Made by a program: the position numbers and the translations under genes. This document shows, one piece after another, positions 50,443 through 56,893 of a DNA stretch of 64,000 bases; the stretch's first letter is position 1, and every line of letters begins with the position of its first letter. Location: NCBI RefSeq assembly GCF_023273855.1, contig NZ_CP096884.1, positions 1,054,001 to 1,118,000 on the forward strand. Direction: 5' to 3'. The notes under the pieces were generated by a model. It had not been told where the DNA came from and searched no databases. It saw nothing but the letters and a program-made list of their open reading frames with translations. Origin of the DNA: Seonamhaeicola sp. ML3 (lineage in GTDB: Bacteria > Bacteroidota > Bacteroidia > Flavobacteriales > Flavobacteriaceae).

Positions 50443-50627
50443 TATAATTAAAATTATTCTTTTAGAATATAAAGTTCCTACAATCAAAAGATAATAAACT
50501 ACAAATAATCTGGTATTTCAATTTTTTACTTAAAATTAAAATCAGAAATTTAAAAATATGACCATTTATTACATCAATCTAGTCAAACAATTATAAATAA
50601 AGCACTTTTAGTCCTTAAGAAATAAGG

Positions 50628-51134
50628 ATGACAATACATAATAAAATTTTTTTGAGACTTTTATCAACTTATAGTACCTTTTTGATTTTCAGTTGCACAC
50701 CAAAGAATATTCAAGCGAATGATGAATATAGTATCAATCTGTCTTTAACAAAAGAGAATGACTGGAAAATGTCTAGAGGAGTATTCGAATTGATTAATGA
50801 TTACCGAAACAGTAAGAATAAATTACAGCTTAAAATAGATAGTTCTTATGCCTCTGCACTAGCTGTAAAACATAGCAAATATATGATGTCTAATAATATA
50901 GTCAATCATAATAACTTCTTTTGGAGAAAAGAAATTCTACAAGAAAAAGGAGCTATTAAAATAGCAGAAAACATCGCATACGGATATACAACGCCAAACA
51001 CAGTTGTAGAAGCTTGGCTTAAAAGCGAAGAACACGTATCAGTTATCCTTGGGGATTATACACACATTGGCTTCGGAATATTAACCAATGCTAATAATAA
51101 TCGAAAATATTACACTACTATTTATTACAAATAA
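50628..51134 (+). CDS. CAP-domain (SCP/PR1) lipoprotein
   Basis: 168 residues. N-terminal hydrophobic stretch ending FLIFSCT (lipobox, Cys near 23). The CAP fold residues are visible: His in AVKHSKYM, Glu in IAENIAYG, and Glu-His in SEEHVSVILGDYTHIGFG. CAP proteins are secreted; some bind lipids or sterols. Convergent with the DUF3050 operon, 14 bases apart. Confidence 0.82.
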   Translation: MTIHNKIFLRLLSTYSTFLIFSCTPKNIQANDEYSINLSLTKENDWKMSRGVFELINDYRNSKNKLQLKIDSSYASALAVKHSKYMMSNNIVNHNNFFWRKEILQEKGAIKIAENIAYGYTTPNTVVEAWLKSEEHVSVILGDYTHIGFGILTNANNNRKYYTTIYYK

Positions 51135-51148
51135 AGTTATCTGAATTT

Positions 51149-51946
51149 TTAATAAGAACACTTTTTCTTTGTCAAATTAATTTCATACAATATACCATCC
51201 CATAGCTCCACTCTCTTAATCAGAGCTTGCTTTGAGACTTCTAAAGCTTCATCCCATTTTTTATCAGAACTCCCACATAGTTCAGAAAGTAATTCTATTG
51301 CGATAGGTCCGTGAAAATCTCCGTCTAACTCAACATGACGCTCCAAGTAATATTGGAATTTTGGATAGGAAACACCTCTTTGCCTTTTAATTTTATCAAG
51401 AACATGTAAAAAAATATCAGGCAATAAATCTTCCCTACCAAATGTAAAAATGGCGGCTATTTTATGAATTTCATTAGTATTGATAACATTAAAAGTAAAA
51501 TTAAGAAAGCTCTTTAACCAATTTCTTAACTTTGATTTATTAATATGGGCATGTATACTATTCATGTCTGATACACCATTTACAAATCTTAAAATTTTCG
51601 TAGTATCAGCCCCAACCTCAAGCATAGCTTCAATGTACATTTCGTAATGACTTAATGGAGTTGATTTATTCCCAATATCACTTTCTTCTGCTAGAACCAA
51701 TTCATTTATAAATCGTACTGTTTTTGCGTTTGATAAAGGTTTCCAGGGAACTACAATATTAGTAAGGTTTGTTTGTAGTCCCTTCAATATCGACATGAAG
51801 TCCCACACAGAAAAAACATGATTTTCCATAAATATTTTAACATTGTTGACATCATCTAGCATTGAGTATACCGGGTGATTTTTCAATGTCATTTTCAGAC
51901 CCTTTAGTTCTTCATGTATTAACTCAATTTTTGCTTTCTTTTCCAA
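51149..51946 (-). CDS. DUF3050 family protein (heme-oxygenase-like fold candidate)
   Basis: 265 residues, nearly all helical. Matches DUF3050: LKNHPVYSMLDDV, HVFSVWDFMSILKGLQ, SHYEMYIEAM, FTFGREDLLPDIF and YYLERHVELDGDFHGPI. Acidic and His residues at Glu88, His100, Glu172, His204, Asp208 and His212 have spacing like ligands in heme-oxygenase-like diiron oxidases; this is inference. Third gene of an operon with two LuxR-HTH-like proteins (9-base gap upstream), suggesting it makes or modifies a small molecule that the others or the adjacent two-component system respond to. Confidence 0.78.
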   Translation of the reverse strand: MEKKAKIELIHEELKGLKMTLKNHPVYSMLDDVNNVKIFMENHVFSVWDFMSILKGLQTNLTNIVVPWKPLSNAKTVRFINELVLAEESDIGNKSTPLSHYEMYIEAMLEVGADTTKILRFVNGVSDMNSIHAHINKSKLRNWLKSFLNFTFNVINTNEIHKIAAIFTFGREDLLPDIFLHVLDKIKRQRGVSYPKFQYYLERHVELDGDFHGPIAIELLSELCGSSDKKWDEALEVSKQALIKRVELWDGILYEINLTKKKCSY

Positions 51947-51955
51947 AATAATTAT

Positions 51956-52759
51956 TTAAATGTTTAAATCGAACAGCTTTAAAAAAGACAGTTCTAAATC
52001 AATATAAAAACTTAATATTTTTTTTTTAAATTCTAATCTTACATTCTCGGCATCATATATATTATCAAGACTTTTTATTTCCTCAATTATGCAACTTGAA
52101 TGCTTACTTAATGTTTTTTTATTGGTGACATTATCTAAATCTAGTGCAGATAGATAGTGAATATTAAAAAAAAAAATCGCAGAGTTAAAACTATTTTCAG
52201 CTCTACAAAAACCCTTTACTTTTGTCTCAATAGTTTTATATCCGTCTTTAAAATAAGATGATTTATTACTCACAAAAAACTGGTTATCTTCTTGTAATTT
52301 TTGATATAAACAGGAAAAATAAGCTTCTCCTATTCTATTGGTCTTTTTGAAATTCATATTTTGATTTGACTCTTTCAAAAAACTACATAGAATGTTTTGT
52401 ACTTCATAATATGATAAACCACCTTTGTTTTTTAGAATATTATATAATCTTTTACCATATTTGTCGGCGTTTCGCTTTATACTTAAATGAAGAAAATCTT
52501 GCATTTTAAGAATTCCCAAATCAAAAGACTTTATTAAAGCCTGATATAAAGTTTTGACATTTAATTCACAATTTATTCTGTTGGCCAGAAAATCGTAAGC
52601 AGACAAATCTAAATTAAGAAATTCCTCTACTTCAGATTTGGAGTAATTTAGGGCATGTAACCTTAAAAAGTATATAGATTCATTACAAAGGCTAATAGTA
52701 TTCTTGTAATTTGATACTTTTTTAGTCTGTTTAAACTCATTGCTTATCATAAACACCAA
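51956..52759 (-). CDS. unknown protein with one LuxR-like HTH segment (paralogue of upstream gene)
   Basis: 267 residues; Met at residue 4 may be the start. The N-terminal part (about 37-84, LNYSKSEVEEFLNLDLSAYDFL...LYQALIKSFDLGIL) aligns with the first repeat of the upstream gene and has the spacing of a LuxR/FixJ helix-turn-helix (S..E...FL......, then ALxxxxxLGIL). The remainder is helical, Phe/Asn-rich and unrecognised. Its start lies 23 bases inside the upstream gene. AT-rich, Asn/Lys-heavy codon use sets it apart from the housekeeping genes. Confidence 0.6.
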   Translation of the reverse strand: MVFMISNEFKQTKKVSNYKNTISLCNESIYFLRLHALNYSKSEVEEFLNLDLSAYDFLANRINCELNVKTLYQALIKSFDLGILKMQDFLHLSIKRNADKYGKRLYNILKNKGGLSYYEVQNILCSFLKESNQNMNFKKTNRIGEAYFSCLYQKLQEDNQFFVSNKSSYFKDGYKTIETKVKGFCRAENSFNSAIFFFNIHYLSALDLDNVTNKKTLSKHSSCIIEEIKSLDNIYDAENVRLEFKKKILSFYIDLELSFLKLFDLNI

Positions 52760-53537
52760 ACTTTAGGAATTCTAATTTTATAACCATTTCTAATATTTCA
52801 TGATATATAGACAGTTTTATATCTGAATTTACTGCTTGCTTATCAGACAGAAATTCAAAAAGTTTTGCTTTAGCTTCATTGATATGTAACTGTATTAGAT
52901 TCCCACCACTCTTTTTGTCTGCTATTAATTTATACTGCAATGCCTTCCTTAAAGTACCAAACCAATTATTTGCTCCTACTTTCCCAAATATACTGTACTC
53001 CATAATCTTGAAAGCCTGAAAAGGGAAAGCTCGTTCTAGCTCTTTTGTTGAAATTTCTCCAAGCACATAATCATAATGTAGTTGGATTAATTCTAATTCA
53101 GAATCGCTCAAAACATCTTTATCTAAGCAATCGTAGTACTTGTGAAAAGCTGTTATTTCATTAGAAAAATGAAAATTCCTCAATAAATCTGAAATCTTTT
53201 CATCTCTTAAATTCAAATCCTTATCAGCTTCTATAGCTTGAAAAAAAGAATCGATAAATTGGACAGTTTTTGATTTAAGGTTACAGTTTACATAGTCCTC
53301 ATACTTTATCAACCCCCTAGCAGTTAAAACCTCAAATAATTTAAACCAATTATTTGTTCCAAAGAGGGCGTGGATTCGATTTTTGATTTCATGCAACTGG
53401 GGCTCACTAACATTTAGAAATCTTAATATCTCAGCATCGCTAAAATCGAGTAGATATATTCTTGCATATATGATGTCAATATTGTGGGGTGTAATTATTT
53501 CACTCTCATTGTTCTTTTCTGTAAATGTCCTTGGCAT
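52737..53537 (-). CDS. unknown protein with two LuxR-like HTH segments
   Basis: 266 residues. Two internal repeats: about 30-77 (LDFSDAEILRFLNVS...GTNNWFKLFEVLTARGLI) and about 159-205 (GEISTKELERAF...GANNWFGTLRKALQYKLI). Both have the pattern of LuxR-type DNA-binding HTH ends, and the shared GxNNWF box is unusual. First gene of the three-gene operon. Could be a two-headed DNA-binding protein or an HTH-derived adaptor. No sensor or enzyme domain seen. Upstream gap to the response regulator is 171 bases and likely holds the promoter. Confidence 0.6.
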   Translation of the reverse strand: MPRTFTEKNNESEIITPHNIDIIYARIYLLDFSDAEILRFLNVSEPQLHEIKNRIHALFGTNNWFKLFEVLTARGLIKYEDYVNCNLKSKTVQFIDSFFQAIEADKDLNLRDEKISDLLRNFHFSNEITAFHKYYDCLDKDVLSDSELELIQLHYDYVLGEISTKELERAFPFQAFKIMEYSIFGKVGANNWFGTLRKALQYKLIADKKSGGNLIQLHINEAKAKLFEFLSDKQAVNSDIKLSIYHEILEMVIKLEFLKFGVYDKQ

Positions 53538-53708
53538 TTTTTTTTGTAAATTTCACAGTTGCAAATTCAAAAACCAATTATTATGTAATAAGTGAAAAAA
53601 ATTTGATAATAGTGTGCTCTAGACACGATAAGTGGATTAATAATGTTTTTTTCTTAAATGGATAAGGCGCTACTTGATTTGCTTTAGCCTAGAAATAAGT
53701 GTTTGAGT

Positions 53709-54446
53709 TTAATAAGATAGACAAAGTAAATCTTGTAATTTTCTTAGCCTTCGCTTTGCGACTGGAAGAGTAATGTTATTAACAATTAACTCGCAATAAA
53801 ACCCACTTGATTTATTAATAGCTTTAATATAAACTACATTAACTAAATACTTATGGTGTATTCTAAAAAAAACATTGGAGCCTTCTAACCTTTTCTCATA
53901 TTCTCCAATATTTGTAGAAGCTACCTTTTTTTGTTTGTTTCTAAGATGAAAAGTTGTATACCTGCCTTCGGCCTCTAAGTAAAGTATGTCTACGAATTTA
54001 ATAAGTTCAATCTTTTCCATTCCAACAACAGCAATAGCTTCAATATTCAATTGCTCATATCCCCCCTTAATATTCGTGTTTGTCTCAACGCACTTCTTAA
54101 CTGCTCTTACTAAATCAACATAACCAATTGGCTTTACTAAATAACTTGAAATATTGTAATTATTTACCGCTGGAATAGCATATTGGGGATATGCAGTACA
54201 GAAGATTATTTTCGTATTGGATGGTTTTATAATATCTAAAAAATCAAACGTTGTATCTTTCCCCTCCAAATGTATATCTAATATGAATATGTCTACTTGG
54301 GTTTTTAAATGATAACTTAAAGCCTGCTCAATATTCACAGCTTTAAAAATCTCTCCAATAGTGTCGCAGTATTTTTTTATGTAAAGACTTAATAAATCTA
54401 AATTATCTAAGTCGTCATCTAAAATCAAAACATTAAACTTTTTCAT
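53709..54446 (-). CDS. LytTR-family response regulator
   Basis: 245 residues. Receiver domain: acidic pocket LILDDD (Asp10-12), phospho-Asp57 in IFILDIHLEG, Thr84 (FCTAYPQ), Lys105 (LVKP). C-terminal LytTR DNA-binding domain from about 137: VDILYLEAEGRYTTFHL and RIHHKYLVNVVYI. It sits 45 bases after the histidine kinase gene and upstream of the HTH-like/DUF3050 operon, its probable target. Confidence 0.93.
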   Translation of the reverse strand: MKKFNVLILDDDLDNLDLLSLYIKKYCDTIGEIFKAVNIEQALSYHLKTQVDIFILDIHLEGKDTTFDFLDIIKPSNTKIIFCTAYPQYAIPAVNNYNISSYLVKPIGYVDLVRAVKKCVETNTNIKGGYEQLNIEAIAVVGMEKIELIKFVDILYLEAEGRYTTFHLRNKQKKVASTNIGEYEKRLEGSNVFFRIHHKYLVNVVYIKAINKSSGFYCELIVNNITLPVAKRRLRKLQDLLCLSY

Positions 54447-54491
54447 TTACCAAACAAATTTTGTTAACATTTAAATTGTTCTCTTGTATAG

Positions 54492-55262
54492 TCATGGAGT
54501 TGTTTTATTAATTCGGATTTCTACCTGATGGATTCGATTTTCAATATTTTTGAAGACAAATTTGACTTTTAGTGTTTGCAAGAGTTTCTTTGATATACCA
54601 ATACCAAAGCCATAACTTTCTTGATTTAAAATGTTACTCTTGGAGTTTTCTTTGTTAGAATATGGTAAGATATTTTTACTTCCAAATGTATTACTTATCA
54701 CTAACAAATGGTGACTAGGATTATCACAAACAATTATTTCTATTGTACCACCAGGGTTTGTATATTTCATGGCGTTTTCAATAAGATTTTTTATTATGAT
54801 TCTGAAAAAATTCAAATCAGAAAAAACGACAGTATTGATATCTCCTGAAATTTTAAGATTTTGATTGTTTTTTTTAATGAATATTTGTAGAGAATCAACA
54901 ACCTCATGAACAAGTTTTACAATATGAAAAAAATTATTTTCGACTTCATAACCTTCTCGATTCAATTTAACCCACACCAATACATTGTTCAATAAATTAT
55001 GACTTTTTGTTAACTTGTATAGTAAAATCTCCAGATACTCCAGTCTTTCTTCATCTTTGAGAGTATGATAATTTTCTAAAAACTCATTACCAAAACCTAA
55101 CATAACACTATATGGGCCTATTAAGTCGTGTGCTAGCACGGTTAACAATTCATTTTTTACTGCAGATTCCTTTTTAGCATTAATCTCACTTTTTTTTGAT
55201 ATTGAAAATACAACAGCATTAAGTACAATACAAATAGCAAAAAGAATAACCAGTATATCCAT
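54492..55262 (-). CDS. short membrane histidine kinase with degenerate ATP lid
   Basis: 256 residues. One N-terminal helix (about 2-22), no periplasmic sensor. H-box VLAHDLIGPYSVML (His45), N-box NLIENAMKYTNPGG (Asn159/163), G2 box GFGIGIS (218-224). The G1 DxGxG motif is missing: the equivalent place reads VISNTFGSKNI. Either activity is altered or it works as a phosphatase or signal-blind partner. With the LytTR gene it makes a two-component pair; the cue is not encoded in the kinase itself. Confidence 0.9.
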   Translation of the reverse strand: MDILVILFAICIVLNAVVFSISKKSEINAKKESAVKNELLTVLAHDLIGPYSVMLGFGNEFLENYHTLKDEERLEYLEILLYKLTKSHNLLNNVLVWVKLNREGYEVENNFFHIVKLVHEVVDSLQIFIKKNNQNLKISGDINTVVFSDLNFFRIIIKNLIENAMKYTNPGGTIEIIVCDNPSHHLLVISNTFGSKNILPYSNKENSKSNILNQESYGFGIGISKKLLQTLKVKFVFKNIENRIHQVEIRINKTTP

Positions 55263-55805
55263 TAAGTTTTTTGGTTTTTAGGCTTAGGAAACAAAATAGA
55301 TTTTGAGGAGGTAAATGAACGCACGAAATTAGGTTTTTAAATTTTTCATTTCAATTGGTGTAGACCATACCCTTATAAGTATAGATGAACTGCAATTACA
55401 TATCGACTTCAGGTCTTTTAAGAAAATAGGGGCAATAAATGCCCCTATCAGTCCCCAAATCTTAAATCAATAGTATAAGTAAGCTATTAATCATTTTAAG
55501 ATGAAACAAATGTATTTAAAGAAAGTCTGTATGCAAGAACTCATTAAATAAGTGGTAACAATTTATACATAAACGTAGTTCATTAAGCAATACTAAAAGT
55601 AACTATGTGAATTTTAAAATTTTCTATCTTTAATTGTAAGACTTATACTAAATACTTACCACTTTTAATCAAAAAACACCAATTATTACATAAAGATTTA
55701 CACACAGTAACGGTTTTTGTTATTTGTGTTGTGAAGATAAATAGTTTGCACATTTTGTTCCTCAAACCAAGATCCTGAGCAAACAATAACAACAAATAAG
55801 TAATA
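55263..55805. other. 543-base intergenic region with one hairpin
   Basis: No convincing gene. It holds a perfect hairpin ATAGGGGCA/TGCCCCTAT (55426-55448) with a modest T-run on the minus strand, and a -33-like TTTTTG (near 55709) ahead of TAAATAGTTTG (55740 region), which could be a promoter for the small peptide gene at 55806. Confidence 0.5.
55426..55448 (-). terminator. possible minus-strand terminator with no assigned gene
   Basis: ATAGGGGCA (55426-55434) / TGCCCCTAT (55440-55448), loop ATAAA. On the minus strand it is followed by TTTTCTT. It could end the transcript of the 55908 membrane gene after a long tail, or an unannotated small RNA. Confidence 0.45.
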
Positions 55806-55928
55806 ATGAAAATAAAAAGAAATAAACTTGAACACTGCTGGCAAGTTTCTTGCAGTATAACTGAATTGATTGTTTTTCTCTTATCTGTAGCAGCCCTTAC
55901 TCTAGTATTATTTGCTTTCTGTTATTAA
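55806..55928 (+). CDS. putative 40-residue hydrophobic peptide
   Basis: ATG 55806 opens a 40-codon frame: basic start MKIKRNKLEHCWQVSC, then a hydrophobic helix (LIVFLLSVAALTLVLFAF) ending CY. It is preceded by promoter-like sequence and lies next to a two-component system, as small membrane or signal peptides often do. Three Cys (11, 16, 39) are notable. The stop overlaps the convergent membrane gene by 21 bases. Unproven. Confidence 0.4.
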   Translation: MKIKRNKLEHCWQVSCSITELIVFLLSVAALTLVLFAFCY

Positions 55929-56297
55929 TGCTGTTAAGTAAACAATCTCTCTACTCGACAATGTTGTTATGTTTGTAACAAATTTGTCTTTATTTTTCAT
56001 TGTAATAACAAGTAAATCTTTACCAATAGTTTCACAGTTCTCAATATCACACCTTCTTAATTTTATACATTTTTCATCTATTAGTTTTAAATAGATAGCT
56101 CTTCTAGAGAAAGTTATTACATTGGGCAACCTAAAATTTACTGCTTTTGTGTAAAAAAAAAGATATAAAATTAACAGGATGAACATATATCCTATGAAAA
56201 TTAATCTTGACGGAAGTAGCAGATAACCAATAATTGAATTAAGCAGAAAAATAATCAAATTAAAGGGAGATATTTCCTTAACTATAAGTTTTTTCAT
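55908..56297 (-). CDS. small membrane protein, hypothetical
   Basis: 129 residues: two hydrophobic helices (about 13-30 and 34-50) then a soluble beta-rich part (AIYLKLIDEKCIKLRRCDIENCETIGKDLLVITM) that looks like a PH-type domain, as in bacterial YdbS/YcxB-like proteins. Function unknown. Alone on the minus strand beside a large gene-poor stretch. Confidence 0.65.
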   Translation of the reverse strand: MKKLIVKEISPFNLIIFLLNSIIGYLLLPSRLIFIGYMFILLILYLFFYTKAVNFRLPNVITFSRRAIYLKLIDEKCIKLRRCDIENCETIGKDLLVITMKNKDKFVTNITTLSSREIVYLTALITESK

Positions 56298-56893
56298 TTA
56301 ATGAAATTAACTTAGTTATTCGCAATAAACAGAAAAGACGTAATAACTGGTTGGTTTTGTCAATAAATGAATAATAATTTTTTATTTCACAAGGACTTTC
56401 CTCTTATTTCCTTTAAGGTTCAATAATTCAAAAAATCTATAACTTAGAAAATTCGCTATTACAATCCTTTGAATATTAACTTAGTTTAAGATTCGTAAAA
56501 ACACATGCATATTGTTTATTATCAATATCCTTTTGTAATGATCATAAAGATGTTTAAACTTAAGGTTACTAAGAATTTCTAACAACATTTTGTTAATGAT
56601 ATTAATACAGAATTACAGCAGTCGCAAAAATTTCGGTAAGGTTAATATCCCATACATAAACATCATAATAATTACTCACATATTATAGCCTTACTGTTTT
56701 CTTAATAAAAAATCTATTCAATACCCGAAATATATTAAATTAACAATCTAGTTGTGAGAAACTATAAAGTGAACCACAGCACTGTAATGTTATGTTAAAA
56801 AATAAGCTCTCGAGGTTTTTTTCAAATTGATTTTAAGAATAGTAGTCTGCTAAAAAGGATTTACCACATAAATAAGATACTCTCTTTTTTTAA
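56298..56893. other. 596-base AT-rich region without visible genes
   Basis: Read on both strands: no long frame, tRNA or strong hairpin. Short runs such as TTAACTTAGTT recur. Probably decayed or regulatory DNA at the edge of the accessory island. Confidence 0.45.

Follow-up and report, generated by a model that had tools for sequence, protein, structure and literature searches.

The genes lying between nadB and ssb in Seonamhaeicola sp. ML3 are best explained, tentatively, as a species-specific regulatory island, with a DUF3050 protein and perhaps a CAP-domain protein as its outputs. The parts are recognisable: an ordinary sensor/response pair, two unusual double HTH proteins and a common iron-type enzyme. 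The island reading is drawn from the modelled tandem GerE fold of the HTH pair, the profile relation of their family to GerE loci and the presence of LytTR genes at four of seven HTH loci, together with the adjoining relatives of regulator and kinase at one other locus (G015) and the absence of the whole block from the congeners at a single site.

The block without counterpart in the congeners occupies positions 50443..56893 of the window, the 64,000-nucleotide stretch of DNA that was analysed. It was delimited by comparison of the nadB–ssb gap and by GC content, the names of the two flanking genes being a by-eye reading of the sequence. The gap measures 6451 bp here, compared with 48, 66, 74 and 120 bp in four of the six congeners; in the remaining two it is 767 and 2551 bp long and contains different genes. 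The GC content of the block is low (0.26–0.31, against 0.31–0.40 in the flanking intervals). The boundary of the preliminary description, which took in five genes, was too narrow, as two further genes share the block that the congeners lack. One encodes a CAP/SCP-domain (YkwD-like) protein, predicted by eye to be a lipoprotein (50628..51134, plus strand; Pfam CAP, 58.5 bits), and is convergent with the putative operon described below. The other is a 129-aa ORF with a hydrophobic N-terminal half, judged by eye, and no Pfam match (55908..56297, minus strand). Repeats flanking the block are as in shuffled sequences (longest common 9 bases direct, 10 inverted), and no motif common to the regions upstream of the CAP gene, HTH1, the kinase gene and the 129-aa ORF rises above chance (best 11 bases, equalled in 24 of 200 shuffles). 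Promoter-like sequences occur at chance level (45 found, 41.8 expected), a consensus for the Bacteroidetes promoter has six matches in the window, where 7.9 would be expected by chance, and none in the block, and the sole Rfam match is a tRNA far away.

All five minus-strand genes described earlier are confirmed in the ORF list, with intact reading frames, and each has homologues elsewhere. They encode a histidine kinase (HK, 256 aa, 54492-55262), a LytTR response regulator (245 aa, 53709-54446) and, beyond a gap of 171 bp, HTH protein 1 (HTH1, 266 aa, 52737-53537), HTH protein 2 (HTH2, 267 aa, 51956-52759) and, as the final gene of this tight group, the DUF3050 protein (265 aa, 51149-51946). 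The 23-base overlap between HTH1 and HTH2 and the 9-base gap that follows were correctly given for the longest ORFs; the overlap, however, hinges on a TTG start, and an in-frame ATG at 52750, the likely HTH2 start, reduces it to 14 bases. The longest ORF of the DUF3050 gene has a TTG start.

The regulator contains a LytTR domain and a receiver domain, both above the Pfam cut-offs (58.5 and 42.1 bits, respectively), and residues D57 and K105 are present. With these domains, and with the kinase gene directly upstream, the pair resembles LytTR two-component systems of the BtsR/LytR type; it differs from them in that the kinase is of the HisKA/HATPase type and has no sensor domain detected by Pfam. 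LytTR regulators are usually paired with a LytS-type kinase. The Pfam scores of HK are below the cut-offs (HATPase_c, 25.3 bits against 26.4; HisKA, 14.0 bits against 26.9), as are its matches to many NCBIfam kinase models; the H, N and G boxes are readable at residues 45, 159 and 218. The protein is short, with an N-terminal hydrophobic stretch, seen by eye, followed by the H-box and ATPase regions. Its best match in the stretches searched is the kinase at G015 (69 bits; 27% over 233 aa), and the best relative of the regulator (41% identity) is encoded about 400 bp downstream of that same kinase.

As modelled, HTH1 and HTH2 each consist of two tandem GerE/LuxR-type HTH units of the DNA-binding type. 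The preliminary description matched the two proteins to no recognised family; this stands in so far as neither has a Pfam match above cut-off, but AF2 models and Foldseek comparisons place them as tandem GerE/LuxR-type HTH proteins. Both model with DNA-binding-type HTH units and not as unrelated folds, and they are indeed paralogous, if distantly (23% over 79 aa, E 4e-5). The HTH1 model (mean pLDDT 78.9) comprises two four-helix units, so that both halves model as HTH units; in HTH2 (mean pLDDT 77.3) the second half is poorly modelled and the HTH unit is less clear there. The closest structural matches include DegU (7x1k, TMt 0.78) and VraR (7ve4, TMt 0.80) for HTH1 and GerE (1fse_D, TMt 0.89, rmsd 1.1 over 63 columns) for HTH2. 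For both proteins the Foldseek probabilities to VraR, DegU and LiaR domains are 0.93–1.00, with E-values that are not significant (none ≤ 0.001); in the HTH1 ranking LuxR-type domains appear from rank 5, and the four rows with the best E-values are unrelated low-probability proteins. Against solved VraR, DegU, LiaR and GerE domains the TMt is 0.75–0.80 for HTH1 and 0.76–0.89 for HTH2, the comparison of HTH1 with GerE 6jqs giving only 0.59. Weak matches of HTH2 to MsrA and to KtrA (E 0.006 each) were set aside because the HTH2 model gives them no support.

The tandem organization is also seen in the family alignment, the N-terminal half of which matches the C-terminal half in hhalign with E 7e-10. 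Pfam makes no GerE call in either window protein; among nine family or fragment proteins scanned, one passes the GerE cut-off, four fall below it and four have no match, the relative L006 scoring 25.6 against the cut-off of 23.5. A profile of the nine-member family matches three of the nine GerE loci fetched by Pfam from the same genome (L023, E 3e-8; L026, 3e-6; L022, 1e-5) and leaves the other six unmatched. In two largely overlapping sets of genomes (64 of 118 and 65 of 119) it also matches short stretches of HTH length, with known members included and the others being profile matches alone. The single units share the four-helix fold of GerE/LuxR-type regulators (PF00196; GerE, VraR, DegU, LiaR), whereas the chains differ from these in carrying two HTH units with helical pairs. 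Pfam and the models give no recognisable receiver or autoinducer/ligand domain, and no PAS domain is recognisable.

Clear members of the HTH family are sparse: of 397 family genomes, 6 (the present one included) have a full-length member and one more has a split one. HTH1 has no match in the six congeners, so that one of seven genus genomes, its own, contains it, and no HTH1 relatives were found on plasmids. A LytTR gene is located no more than about 6 kb from the HTH gene at four of seven distinct loci (the window, G071, G245:C5 = G396:C12 and G333), a small number to be set against a chance expectation of about 3% per locus, calculated from the eight LytTR genes in the 3.47 Mb of the present genome. 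At three of these four the gap between the two genes is 16–171 bases; the loci with no LytTR gene nearby are G225, G245:C2 = G396:C19 and G253. For the best relatives of the regulator, 23 loci were fetched (its own excluded); 20 of them have no HTH-family gene, and the other three (G333:C5, G396:C12 and G245:C5) had been fetched for their HTH gene in the first place.

The DUF3050 protein scores 301 bits in Pfam (cut-off 22.2) and matches PDB 9vwb_A with E 3e-51; the literature searched gave no mention of 9VWB. The earlier proposal of a diiron oxygenase fold agrees with this match and with PMC4520260, which point to a family of heme-oxygenase-fold di-metal oxidases. The window protein keeps all 31 columns in which conservation reaches at least 95% (letters H, E, D, Y, R, K, W, N, C, Q), and in the sequence alignment every conserved H/E/D column, the candidates for a 3-His/3-carboxylate ligand set; these include H204-D208-H212, the spacing of which is that of CADD 207-211-215 in the same paper. 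It resembles the DUF3050 branch of the heme-oxygenase-like di-metal oxidases (MgoB; PDB 9vwb) in its family match and in its H-x3-D-x3-H and E/H columns, with an identity of about 50% at most to any relative found. The grouping of the window copy with regulators sets it apart from the other loci examined. DUF3050 genes are widespread, being present in 159 of 395 family genomes. At 110 other DUF3050 loci, which comprise the 30 best of the family-genome search, with 1.5-kb flanks, and the 80 best of 129, with up to 6 kb, there is no relative of the HTH family, of the LytTR regulator or of CAP. The co-occurrence of the five genes, on which the earlier idea of a system depended, was thus not found in the genomes and loci searched, and a conserved five-gene system is rejected. 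Regulation as the likely theme of the cassette is supported, so that the earlier interpretation holds in part. An anti-phage island was rejected, as its PADLOC matches were limited to the kinase and the regulator (two matches, E 0.002 and 0.01). Phage cargo was likewise rejected: PHROGs has matches for the DUF3050 protein, regulator, kinase and CAP protein and none for the HTH proteins, and viral contigs contain no HTH1 relative.

In the proposed mechanism, a kinase anchored in the membrane and lacking any recognisable sensor domain would phosphorylate the LytTR regulator, which would act at the promoter of a co-transcribed HTH1-HTH2-DUF3050 operon and perhaps also at that of the convergent CAP gene. 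HTH1 and HTH2 would bind DNA and co-regulate their own operon and genes for surface or secreted proteins. The DUF3050 protein would be a recruited, active di-metal oxidase that serves as a metabolic output of the operon, and not as its signal. Several of the results given above speak against this reading: the 20 regulator-relative loci that have no HTH-family gene, the upstream motifs and promoter-like sequences at chance level, the non-significant Foldseek E-values, the missing Pfam GerE calls in the window proteins, the weak other matches of HTH2, the six GerE loci that the profile leaves unmatched and the small number of LytTR-linked loci.

It is quite possible, if somewhat doubtful, that the nadB–ssb gap is instead a hot spot of unrelated genes, and that the kinase/LytTR pair, the HTH-HTH-DUF3050 group and the CAP gene are separate acquisitions with no common function. 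In G199 the gap is occupied by a 7TMR-DISM hybrid kinase, in G203 by an HRDC-domain ORF and in G245, where nadB and ssb were also read by eye, by a CAP gene (L255); the five genes were not found together elsewhere, and CAP relatives are widespread, occurring at E ≤ 1e-12 in 232 of 355 family genomes. The tight packing of HTH1-HTH2-DUF3050 and the recurrence of LytTR genes near HTH-family genes argue against separate acquisition, as does G333, where a CAP relative (L040) is convergent with an HTH-family gene as in the window. It is unlikely that the genes are decaying or newly arrived and that the kinase was once a larger sensor kinase, now truncated. HK does begin right at the hydrophobic stretch, while the G015 kinase has about 190 extra residues ahead of the common part; the DUF3050 end branch is long (1.71 against a median of 0.15), and divergence is very high in the HTH proteins. 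However, the frames are all intact, the DUF3050 columns are fully retained, and tblastn of a 1.7-kb stretch upstream of and around the HK start against ORFs of 20 related loci gave only E 0.013–0.93, a result on which a sensor remnant upstream of HK was rejected.

The preliminary description had proposed that the DUF3050 protein makes or modifies a small signal to which the HTH pair and the LytTR regulator respond, which we regard as improbable. The proposal has parallels in the Pvf/mgo/ham signal clusters of Proteobacteria. We take HamA and PvfA to be DUF3050 proteins. HamA, annotated as a haem-containing oxygenase, belongs to the valdiazen cluster and its counterpart PvfA to the Pvf cluster, and the mgo operon, which is needed for mangotoxin production, encodes MgoB, a member of DUF3050 (PMC3298696); the retained catalytic columns also fit. 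It is also reported, however, that an mgoB mutant still makes mangotoxin, at a lower level (PMC3298696), and that a hamA mutant fed an intermediate still makes fragin and valdiazen. The HTH proteins and kinase, moreover, have no detected domain for receiving such a signal (ligand, receiver or sensor), and many DUF3050 genes adjoin genes of metabolic or housekeeping look. The Pvf/mgo/ham clusters also have an NRPS and an AurF-like N-oxygenase, whereas the longest ORF at 47–60 kb of the window is 604 aa and there is therefore no complete NRPS there. Very improbable is a self-contained signalling island, in which tandem-LuxR pairs would be a new phospho-independent regulator class wired to LytTR systems, one pair having taken over a divergent DUF3050 oxidase, with feedback of its product on the regulators.

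The regulatory island preferred here gives a tandem GerE HTH identity to a protein family left unplaced by Pfam and NCBIfam scans, and suggests a link between this family and LytTR regulators in several Flavobacteriaceae. In the window, the common orphan oxidase DUF3050 is naturally grouped with dedicated regulators, which may offer a handle on the substrate of the family.

The five minus-strand ORFs of the preliminary description are present between nadB and ssb: a histidine kinase (HK, 54492-55262), a LytTR regulator (53709-54446), two HTH-like proteins of 266 and 267 residues (HTH1, 52737-53537; HTH2, 51956-52759) and a DUF3050 protein (51149-51946). ORF calling also reproduces the 23-base overlap between HTH1 and HTH2 (14 bases if the ATG at 52750 is the start) and the 9-base gap between HTH2 and DUF3050. 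Three of the five genes are named by Pfam (DUF3050; LytTR with a receiver domain; a weak histidine kinase); HK and the LytTR regulator both hit many NCBIfam models at scores under the cut-offs and retain their motif residues. The block (50443-56893) also holds a CAP-domain gene and, at 55908-56297, a 129-aa ORF whose N-terminal half is hydrophobic and which Pfam does not match. Pfam detects no integrase or transposase among the block's seven main ORFs.

The nadB gene was located in all seven genomes of the genus (nadB and ssb were named by eye). Four of the six congeners have a nearly empty nadB-ssb gap (48, 66, 74 and 120 bp); it measures 767 bp in G203, where it contains an HRDC-domain ORF, 2551 bp in G199, where a 7TMR-DISM hybrid kinase occupies it, and 6451 bp in the window. 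From these differing lengths and contents it follows that the site is variable in the genus and that the present gene set is specific to Seonamhaeicola sp. ML3 among the seven genomes. The GC content of the block is 0.26-0.31, compared with 0.31-0.40 in its surroundings, and no repeat common to its outer gaps exceeds chance expectation.

HTH1 and HTH2 match no family above cut-off, and their proposed HTH-like nature is supported by the predicted structures. For HTH1, AlphaFold predicts two units of four helices with a helical pair after each (mean pLDDT 78.9); in the model of HTH2 (mean pLDDT 77.3) the first unit is clear while the second is poorly modelled (residues 156-167 below 50). Foldseek places single units of both proteins on LuxR-type DNA-binding domains. 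For HTH1 these begin at rank 5, below four unrelated low-probability rows (VraR 4gvp, rmsd 2.2 over 68 columns; DegU, TMt 0.78); for HTH2, GerE, DegU and VraR top the list (6jqs, TMt 0.86; at rank 38, 1fse_D, TMt 0.89, rmsd 1.1 over 63). No match of either protein reaches an E-value of 0.001, so the assignment is carried by probability and TM-score. The sequence evidence agrees with this predicted GerE/LuxR placement: within the family alignment, the N-terminal half aligns to the C-terminal half (hhalign E 7e-10, probability 96.5), and a nine-member family profile matches three of nine Pfam-fetched GerE loci in the ML3 genome (E 3e-8 to 1e-5). Among nine family or fragment proteins scanned, one (L006) lies above the Pfam GerE cut-off, four more have GerE below it and four have no GerE match. 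In G253 (L043, 9296-10122), the tandem-HTH profile hits both of two neighbouring ORFs, 136 and 139 aa long, as though a single protein had been divided. HTH2 is 15% identical to HTH1 and 19-24% identical to relatives elsewhere, so a recent duplication does not seem to be the origin of the pair.

Searched as a single sequence, HTH1 finds matches in 2 of 199 family genomes, its own included, in its own genome only among the seven of the genus, and in none of 84,980 species, a scan that detects close relatives only. A three-row profile matches 14 of 397 family genomes: six contain full-length members (ML3, G071, G225, G245, G333 and G396), G253 has the split form, and the remaining seven give weak or interrupted matches, which may be ordinary LuxR-type proteins. 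Neighbourhoods were compared at nine fetched stretches, each G245/G396 pair being counted once, giving seven distinct loci with the window; the weak match in G137, where a LytTR gene is absent, was excluded. A LytTR-domain gene lies within ~6 kb of the HTH-family gene at four of the seven (the window, G071, G245:C5 = G396:C12 and G333) and at none of the other three (G225, G245:C2 = G396:C19 and G253). By our arithmetic, the chance expectation is ~3% per locus from the 8 LytTR genes of the 3.47-Mb ML3 genome, and would be higher in denser genomes. The surroundings of G245:C5 also include, at a distance of 7-9 kb, a PorP/SprF protein and a type IX secretion-signal protein.

Against such a link, among 23 loci that carry the best-matching relatives of the LytTR regulator (the window not counted), 20 lack an HTH-family gene, and the remaining three had been fetched because of theirs. 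Phmmer finds an HK relative at three of the 20, and many of the others have an adjoining ORF of about 900-1070 aa. In G333 (L040) and G225 (L202), a LytTR regulator lies near proteins bearing, by eye, an N-terminal VGIGT/VGVGT motif and near a further shared protein, thioredoxin-like in G333; the HTH-family gene adjoins only in G333.

The suggestion that DUF3050 may have a diiron oxygenase fold is strengthened by published modelling on CADD, which assigns DUF3050 to the heme-oxygenase-fold di-metal oxidases (PMC4520260); there is also a solved relative named DUF3050 (9vwb_A, E 3e-51). In an alignment with 110 relatives, every one of the 31 columns with >=95% conservation (for the letters examined) is retained in the window protein, H204-D208-H212 among them. 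It is at most about 50% identical to the relatives found, and its branch length is 1.71 against a median of 0.15 (tree of 67 rows, position unsure). DUF3050 occurs widely, in 159 of 395 family genomes, the window copy being the only match in ML3. At the 30 best loci, where neighbours were named by eye and some loci fall into two classes, the neighbours are acyl-CoA dehydrogenase-like (16), methionine aminopeptidase-like plus methyltransferase-like on the flanks (7) or ferredoxin-like (6). Co-occurrence of the five genes, raised in the preliminary description, was not borne out: the set was found in a single genome, and no HTH-family, LytTR-regulator or CAP relative occurs at 110 other DUF3050 loci (the 30 best of 159, taken with flanks of 1.5 kb, and the 80 best of 129, whose flanks reach up to 6 kb), one of which (L137) has an HK relative.

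The CAP-domain gene (50628-51134), outside the boundary first drawn, is convergent with DUF3050 and ends 14 bases from its stop. In G333 a CAP gene 43-46% identical is convergent with the HTH-family gene, and in G245 (L255) one sits, by eye, between nadB and ssb. Relatives of CAP are widespread, occurring in 232 of 355 family genomes at E <= 1e-12; at 29 loci examined (L252-L280) the usual neighbours are of 3-hydroxyanthranilate dioxygenase type (24) and asparaginase type (23), Pfam having been used to check a single gene of either type, and an HTH-family neighbour occurs only in G333. CAP is thus not generally tied to the kinase/LytTR/HTH/DUF3050 set; the dioxygenase-type neighbours and the nadB-ssb position in G245 suggest a possible link to quinolinate/NAD genes.

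The likeliest reading of the set is a regulatory island in which the kinase would act through the LytTR regulator on the HTH1-HTH2-DUF3050 operon, the tandem LuxR-type proteins serving as putative further DNA-binding regulators and DUF3050 as the output enzyme. The analysis shows the content of the block, the predicted folds, the catalytic columns and how the site departs from its counterparts in congeners; we infer every regulatory step, and shared upstream motifs were sought and none found. The earlier proposal, that DUF3050 makes or modifies a small signal and the HTH pair and LytTR regulator control the response, has a precedent: MgoB of the mgo operon is, like the window protein, a DUF3050 protein (PMC3298696), and HamA/PvfA are located in signal clusters (PMC11659414, PMC10194917). 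However, PMC3298696 describes mangotoxin as still produced by an mgoB mutant, at a lower level; ORF calling finds no NRPS-sized ORF near the set, in 47-60 kb of the window, and neither HTH1 nor HTH2 shows a ligand domain. The chemistry of heme-oxygenase-like di-metal oxidases (HDO) is covered in PMC13185094 and PMC13108848, neither of which contains the term DUF. The set is real and, although most of its parts are ordinary, it has one unusual element, the tandem-GerE regulators, and one unusual combination, that of these regulators with DUF3050, seen in a single genome.
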